A stretch of 34,927 nt of DNA from Bacteroidota bacterium (lineage in GTDB: Bacteria; Bacteroidota; Bacteroidia; Bacteroidales; Prolixibacteraceae), in assembly GCA_030706665.1 (NCBI GenBank), contig JAUZOB010000002.1:1-34927 (forward strand). The letters run 5' to 3'. The notes under the pieces are model-generated. The model searched no databases. It was not told where the DNA came from and saw nothing but the letters and a program-made list of their open reading frames with translations. Made by a program: the position numbers and the translations under genes. Positions within the stretch are counted from its first letter, which is position 1, and each line of letters starts with the position of its first letter. Shown in pieces: positions 32,290 to 34,927 of the stretch.

Positions 32290-33975
32290 ATGAGCGAAGA
32301 CAGGCAGATCATTTTTTCAATGTATAAGGTGAGCAAAGCTTATGCTCCGAATAAAAACGTAATCAAAGACATTTCTCTTTCCTTTTTTCTCGGTGCTAAG
32401 ATTGGAATTATCGGTCTGAACGGCTCCGGAAAGTCTACGCTGCTTAAGATTATTGCAGGACTGGATAAATCTTATCAGGGGGAAGTCGTATTTGCACCAG
32501 GATATAGTGTCGGATATCTGGAGCAGGAACCTAAATTGGACGATAATAAGACTGTAAAAGAAATTGTTCAGGAAGGCGTTCAAGAAGTTGTTGACATTCT
32601 TGCTGCATTTGAGAATGTAAATAATCAATTTATGGATCCGGAAGTGCTTGAAAATCCAGATAAAATGGAGGCACTAATGAATGAGCAGGCAAGACTTCAA
32701 GAGTTGATCGACCATCATGATGCATGGAATCTGGATACAAAACTGGAACGTGCAATGGATGCCCTCCGATGTCCTGCCGGTGATCAGATAGTCGGAACAC
32801 TTTCTGGTGGTGAGCGAAGAAGAATCGCTCTTTGCAGACTCTTACTCCAGGATCCGGATATCTTACTGCTAGATGAGCCTACGAACCATTTGGACGCTGA
32901 ATCGATTGACTGGCTGGAACAACATCTAAAGCAATACAAGGGAACTGTTATTTGCGTTACCCATGATCGCTACTTCCTTGACAATGTAGCAGGGTGGATT
33001 CTTGAACTTGACAGAGGAGAGGGAATTCCCTGGAAAGGTAACTATACCTCCTGGCTTGAACAGAAAACAAAACGACTTGAGAGTGAAGAAAAAGGATCCT
33101 CAAAACGTCGTAAAACACTTGAAAGAGAACTCGAATGGGTACGGATGGCTCCTAAAGCCAGACAGGCAAAATCCAAGGCTCGTCTGAAAGCCTATGATAA
33201 GCTCTTGAATGAAGATGTTAGAGAAAAAGAAGAAAAACTTGAAATCTACATACCCAACGGCCCCCGTTTGGGAGATAAGGTAATTGAAGCCCATGAAGTG
33301 TCTAAAGCTTATGGGGAAAGATTATTGTTTGAAAATCTTGAATTTGTTCTTCCACCCAATGGAATTGTTGGTGTTATCGGACCGAATGGAGCTGGTAAAA
33401 CTACTCTTTTCAAAATGATAATGGGAATGGAGACTGTCGATAAAGGTACTTTTGAAGTCGGAGAAACTGTCAAGATTGCCTATGTCGATCAGACTCACAA
33501 AGCAATTGATCCTGCAAAATCCGTATTCGAGGTAATATCAGGAGGGAATGACACCATGATGCTGGGAGGTAAGACTGTAAACGCAAGGGCCTATGTCGCC
33601 CGGTTTAATTTCACTGGCGCAGATCAGGAAAAGAAATGTGGCGTCTTATCCGGAGGTGAACGGAATCGTTTACACCTGGCATTGGCATTAAAAGAAGAAG
33701 GAAATGTACTTCTGCTCGATGAGCCAACCAACGATATTGATGTAAATACCCTTCGTGCATTGGAGGAAGGCTTGGATGATTTTGCCGGATGTGCAGTTGT
33801 GATCTCTCATGACCGCTGGTTCCTTGATCGTATTGCAACTCATATTCTTGCTTTTGAAGGAGATTCCCAGATCTATTACTTCGAAGGAGGATATTCCGAT
33901 TACGAAGAAAATCGTAAAAAAAGACTTGGTGATATCGGACCAACTCGAATTCGATACAAAAAGCTGGTGAAATAA
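32290..33975 (+). CDS. ettA: Energy-dependent translational throttle protein EttA (ABC-F ATPase)
   Basis: Two ABC domains (GLNGSGKSTLL/LSGGERRRIALCRLLL and GPNGAGKTTLF/LSGGERNRLHLALAL), arm and linker region typical of EttA, 561 aa. Confidence 0.93.
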   Translation: MSEDRQIIFSMYKVSKAYAPNKNVIKDISLSFFLGAKIGIIGLNGSGKSTLLKIIAGLDKSYQGEVVFAPGYSVGYLEQEPKLDDNKTVKEIVQEGVQEVVDILAAFENVNNQFMDPEVLENPDKMEALMNEQARLQELIDHHDAWNLDTKLERAMDALRCPAGDQIVGTLSGGERRRIALCRLLLQDPDILLLDEPTNHLDAESIDWLEQHLKQYKGTVICVTHDRYFLDNVAGWILELDRGEGIPWKGNYTSWLEQKTKRLESEEKGSSKRRKTLERELEWVRMAPKARQAKSKARLKAYDKLLNEDVREKEEKLEIYIPNGPRLGDKVIEAHEVSKAYGERLLFENLEFVLPPNGIVGVIGPNGAGKTTLFKMIMGMETVDKGTFEVGETVKIAYVDQTHKAIDPAKSVFEVISGGNDTMMLGGKTVNARAYVARFNFTGADQEKKCGVLSGGERNRLHLALALKEEGNVLLLDEPTNDIDVNTLRALEEGLDDFAGCAVVISHDRWFLDRIATHILAFEGDSQIYYFEGGYSDYEENRKKRLGDIGPTRIRYKKLVK

Positions 33976-34201: not shown

Positions 34202-34232
34202 TATAAATCCCGAATACAATCCGGGATTTATA
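34202..34232. repeat. 11-bp perfect inverted repeat (hairpin)
   Basis: TATAAATCCCG (34202-34212)/CGGGATTTATA (34222-34232), 9-nt loop. Confidence 0.85.
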
Positions 34233-34265: not shown

Positions 34266-34296
34266 AAGGCCGACAAATAATACATTAGTCGGCCTT
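34266..34296 (-). terminator. Probable minus-strand terminator
   Basis: AAGGCCGAC (34266-34274)/GTCGGCCTT (34288-34296); minus-strand exit reads TCTATTTTTTCTATG. Confidence 0.6.
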
Positions 34297-34493
34297 GAAT
34301 TCTTTTGACGAAAAGTGATACAGGGATAATACACGACAGGCTTCACCAAATTTGGAGCAGAATCTTCCCAATGCAGAACTAAATCTTCTGAAAGATTATG
34401 ACCTGGAGGTATCCCGACGATTGGAATGTTTAAATGCGTAAAATGGACTTTAGATTTATTTCATTCAGAAAGAATGATATTCAGAGGTGGAGC

Positions 34494-34927
34494 ATGGCAG
34501 AAAATGTAGAACTCCCAGAAGGTTTCGTATTGGATGAGTTACCACAAGGATTTGTCCTGGATCAGCCTAGACCTACGATTCAAAGACCACAAGAGCCATA
34601 CACACAGAGTTTAGGCAACATCCCTCTCGGTGGCGGTGATATTCCAGCAGGACTTGACGTAGGGCAATACTCCCAATCCCTCAATCAGCTTGCTCAACCG
34701 TCAGCCATGTGGGATGCAGCTAAGACGCTAGGTGCTTCAGCGGTCCTTGGGCCAGCTTCAGGGATTGCAGGAATGGCAGCTATGACCCCTCTTTCCTTGG
34801 CAACTGGAGGTGGTCTTGAGAGGGCTAATGACTGGGTTCAGGCTATTCAAGGATTGATACCACAGCCACAGACTCTAGGTGGACAGCAATGGGTACAGGC
34901 TACAAATGCTCCTATGGCTCCATTCCA
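34494..34927 (+). CDS. Phage-like structural/virion-associated protein, N-terminal fragment (runs off window; not in ORF track)
   Basis: Hand translation: MAENVELPEGFVLDELPQGFVLDQPRPTIQRPQEPYTQSLGNIPLGGGDIPAGLDVGQYSQSLNQLAQPSAMWDAAKTLGASAVLGPASGIAGMAAMTPLSLATGGGLERANDWVQAIQGLIPQPQTLGGQQWVQATNAPMAPF...; no stop to the window end; SD-like GAGGTGGAG just upstream. Function is inferred from pattern only. Confidence 0.6.
   Translation, partial: MAENVELPEGFVLDELPQGFVLDQPRPTIQRPQEPYTQSLGNIPLGGGDIPAGLDVGQYSQSLNQLAQPSAMWDAAKTLGASAVLGPASGIAGMAAMTPLSLATGGGLERANDWVQAIQGLIPQPQTLGGQQWVQATNAPMAPF

Follow-up and report, generated by a model that had tools for sequence, protein, structure and literature searches.

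A fragment of a P22-type ejection cassette at the end of a Bacteroidales contig, probably attached by a faulty assembly join

Layout of the contig

The window analysed here, 34,927 nucleotides in length, is a whole contig (G000:C112, 1-34927) of a 3.43-Mb draft assembly in 485 contigs. From base 1 to about base 34465 it consists of Bacteroidales chromosome, in which ribosomal-protein operons are followed by an ettA-type gene (Table 1). Of 40 further genomes of the order included in a search, 30 had DNA-level matches to the latter. About 490 AT-rich bases separate the end of ettA from the phage part, a foreign stretch of about 460 bases that reaches the contig end. The comparison of the region downstream of ettA in related genomes, which the original prediction had proposed, showed that the 3' neighbours of this gene differ among the relatives checked, with no phage-like open reading frame (ORF) among those listed.

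Table 1. Features of the contig end and of the host region preceding it.
Feature	Position	Strand	Basis or remark
ettA-type ABC-F ATPase gene	32290..33975	+	last clear host gene
Inverted repeat AAGGCCGAC...GTCGGCCTT, terminator-like stem	34266..34296		host side of junction
Possible host-gene remnant truncated by junction (weak)	34296..34460	-	coding-like frame
Inferred Bacteroidales/phage DNA junction	34464..34470		gp20-type homology break
Predicted last 13 codons and stop of gp20-type phage ejection gene (ERMIFRGGAWQKM, then stop)	34468..34509	+	tail profile E=5.5e-6
Predicted 5' part (144 codons, open at contig end) of gp16-type phage DNA-ejection protein gene	34494..34925	+	profile E=9.4e-15

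A gp16-type reading frame at the contig end

The ORF that runs off the contig had been described as foreign and phage-like, with a Shine-Dalgarno-like site and an LPxGFVLD repeat. Both elements are present in the sequence: AGAGGTGGAGC precedes the ATG at 34494, and LPEGFVLD and LPQGFVLD follow each other in tandem at residues 7-14 and 16-23 of the translation. A profile built from the N-termini of 42 distinct phage relatives supports the phage assignment, as it matched this ORF with an E-value of 9.4e-15, the next best of the 1018 six-frame ORFs of the window reaching 4.6. In tblastn searches against phage genomes, ORF residues 1 to 23-27 aligned, with marginal E-values of 0.08-0.3, to the first residues of Lederbergvirus DNA transfer/ejection proteins, one of which is annotated as a transglycosylase. 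These alignments are due to a shared LPxGFVLD start, which becomes visible when the N-termini are compared by translation (SEN22, MATDVGLPDGFVLDSQPDSSQLPDGFVLDEQ; E212, MATNVGLPEGFVLDEQPDNSQLPDGFVLDAQ; window ORF, MAENVELPEGFVLDELPQGFVLDQP). A match to Gordonia in the same searches was weak and probably spurious.

Past residue 26 only weak similarity remains, the best match being to an uncultivated phage from IMG/VR (L107; 49% over 37 residues, E=0.007), and the C-terminal part alone matched only a Desulfofustis phage, with an E-value of 8. The 144-residue fragment had no match in Pfam, PHROGs or PDB sequence searches; a plasmid search and a DNA-level phage search returned matches at chance level only. 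No close relative of the ORF emerged when IMG/VR and GTDB contigs were scanned with protein seeds, or when strict motif patterns were applied to IMG/VR. By its sequence, we assign the ORF to a phage and predict it to encode an ejection protein of the P22 gp16 type, a kinship that we claim through the N-terminus and the gene order only and not as membership in a Pfam or PHROG family.

The overlapping gp20-type gene and the position of the junction

The gene order is provided by a short upstream fragment, which had escaped the original prediction and which we identify as the predicted C-terminus of a gp20-type gene. Its frame stops at 34509 and overlaps the ATG of the gp16-type ORF by exactly 16 nt, an overlap of the same length being found between the two genes in 45 of 67 relatives (near-identical phages counted). 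In these relatives the gp20-type gene ends in a conserved tail, EGxTATNPxTGxKxIFRxGxWQ, and a profile of this tail from 29 distinct relatives matched the window fragment with an E-value of 5.5e-6, the next best among the 1018 ORFs of the window being 1.6. In one relative, the uncultivated IMG/VR phage L044, the upstream gene ends in ERMIVRGGKWQKM, 11 of whose 13 residues are identical to the window tail.

The match to the tail profile begins at base 34468, which corresponds to profile position 12. The conserved stretch of eleven residues that should precede the match, EGxTATNPKTG, is absent in all three forward frames, and the gp20-type frame closes 35 codons back, compared to 246-636 open codons in the distinct relatives listed. 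We therefore place the junction at about 34464-34470. The origin of the DNA changes abruptly at this point, near the contig end and inside a gene, so that the boundary proposed earlier, at 34300 or 34494, has to be moved to the start of homology at about 34468, within the gp20-type gene. The junction leaves only the final 13 codons of this virion gene and falls midway through the cassette, a place where no att site would be expected. There is no tRNA anywhere in the window and no integrase ORF or mobile element near the junction, in agreement with what had been noted before on integrase and tRNA.

Relatives of the cassette

In the gp20 and gp16 pair of the Lederbergvirus phages SEN22 and E212 (phrog_770, DNA transfer protein; phrog_6704), the tandem LPxGFVLD motif occupies the same N-terminal place as in the window ORF, and the preceding gene has the same tail and the same 16-nt overlap. 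The motifs are, however, 7 residues apart in Lederbergvirus and only 1 residue apart in the window ORF. The rest of the window fragment is not recognisably similar to Lederbergvirus, and the PHROG profiles do not match it.

When IMG/VR was scanned for two LPxGFVLD-type motifs behind an ATGG start, 76 stretches were returned, most of them long virion genes with the pattern in frame and some with the ATGG out of frame only. The best overall relative is the uncultivated phage L107, to which the whole fragment could be aligned (34% over 152 columns); no Pfam model covers its tandem motif. Its gene cluster is that of a short-tailed phage, with genes for terminase, SU10-type portal, capsid, adaptor, Hc3 and DNA ejection upstream. 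The cassettes of L107 and L044 are embedded in contiguous virion gene clusters, whereas the window retains 13 codons of the upstream gene, bordered on the left by bacterial DNA. In the GTDB collection, the strict tandem motif had five matches, all in Pseudomonadota (Proteus, Xenorhabdus, a Rhodobacteraceae MAG, Reyranella and Microvirga), which bears out the resemblance to Pseudomonadota phages that the original prediction had proposed.

Across the relatives L044 to L124, from viral and genome contigs, the tandem LPxGFVLD start of the gp16-type proteins and the ATNPxTGxKxIFRxGxWQ end of the overlapping gp20-type gene are kept in ejection proteins that are otherwise very diverse and range from 300 to 1268 residues. 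Judged from this conservation, the pair suggests a shared signal for packaging or interaction. The tandem LPxGFVLD start, together with an overlapping upstream gene ending in RxGxWQ, constitutes a compact signature with which divergent ejection cassettes could be found where PHROGs and Pfam miss them at this fragment length.

Composition of the phage part

The codon usage of the ORF, said earlier to be outlying in its use of CTA, AGG, GGG and CCC, turned out to be host-like, with a per-codon log-likelihood of 0.044 (host windows of 144 codons, 0.096 ± 0.054); CCC does not occur, AGG occurs once, CTA twice and GGG three times. The higher G/C content, which had also been pointed out, stands for the overall value, since the ORF at 0.509 exceeds every upstream 434-bp window (maximum 0.488), but not for GC3, which at 0.36 falls within the host range. 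Given this GC3, we attribute the high overall GC to the Gly/Ala/Pro-rich protein.

Origin of the join

We consider it probable that the contig is a chimera resulting from a faulty assembly join. This is because the contig end is marked as phage by the 16-nt overlap and by two profiles that are independent of each other, a virion gene is cut, and integrase and tRNA are lacking. In addition, a search of 393 sampled genomes of the order gave no relative of the ORF. The assembly itself is a draft in 485 contigs, and five queries against it, including the P22 portal, an SU10-type portal, the Hc3 connector and a gp20-type protein, found nothing, although this is a weak negative, several of the queries having had no positive control. 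A chimera had previously been rated at least as likely as integration; the cut inside the ejection cassette moves the balance to clearly favouring it. According to a review, MAGs and single-cell assemblies often contain chimeric sequences (PMC10523443). Two observations count against a chimera: the codon usage and GC3 are host-like, as expected of a host-adapted phage, and the assembly contains no second contig sharing sequence on either side of the join, as a repeat-induced misjoin might leave.

The join would most likely have formed during library preparation or short-read assembly, and the sequence from about 34468 to the end would belong to an unrelated phage of the short-tailed type that carries a P22-type ejection cassette and presumably infects a pseudomonadotan. 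In its own phage, the gp16-type protein would travel inside the virion and leave it by ejection together with its gp7- and gp20-type partners, and the ejected proteins would form a conduit carrying the DNA across the cell envelope (cf. PMC8954989). For the window fragment, the shared N-terminus and the gene order point to such an ejection role; the membrane segments would be expected in the C-terminal part, which the contig does not include.

Alternatively, the junction could be a real one in the chromosome, where a prophage that has decayed or been rearranged, or a piece of phage DNA captured by illegitimate recombination, happens to end inside the gp20-type gene. P22-like phages are temperate and P22-type cassettes are found in bacterial genomes; the sequence is also continuous across the join, with codon usage and GC3 compatible with the host. 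Nevertheless, we judge this explanation unlikely, as the break lies within a virion cassette and not at an att site, the join shows no integrase, tRNA or mobile element, the 393 genomes of the order gave no relative of the ORF, and none of the other phage structural genes checked was found in the assembly. We rate it as somewhat less likely still that a P22-type ejection cassette truly resides in, or infects, this Bacteroidales lineage, given that its order yielded no relative of the ejection protein among the 393 genomes sampled. An ordinary host chromosomal gene that resembles a phage protein through low-complexity composition, as might be suspected from the weak similarity past residue 26 to L107 and the absence of Pfam or PHROG matches, is hardly credible and in practice refuted, since three independent lines of evidence, namely the N-terminal profile, the gp20-type tail and the overlap of exactly 16 nt, point the same way, and no homologue was found in the sampled genomes of the order.

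The finding is mainly one of quality control: apart from marking the contig as suspect it has little biological interest, and the last ~460 bases should not be taken as evidence that this Bacteroidales genome carries a phage or is infected by it.

The interval between ettA and the junction

On the host side of the junction, the minus-strand frame listed in Table 1 may be the 3' part of a host gene without known relatives that was cut by the junction, or it may have arisen by chance. It has a host codon score of 0.053, whereas the five remaining frames score between -0.26 and -0.35; searches with it gave no convincing homologue, and no relative in the 393 genomes of the order. The terminator-like stem sits within this frame, and a consensus terminator scan made no call there. 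On the minus strand, a T-rich stretch follows this inverted repeat. A second inverted repeat, at 34202-34232 (TATAAATCCCG..), also lies between ettA and the junction, and both repeats are perfect or near-perfect.
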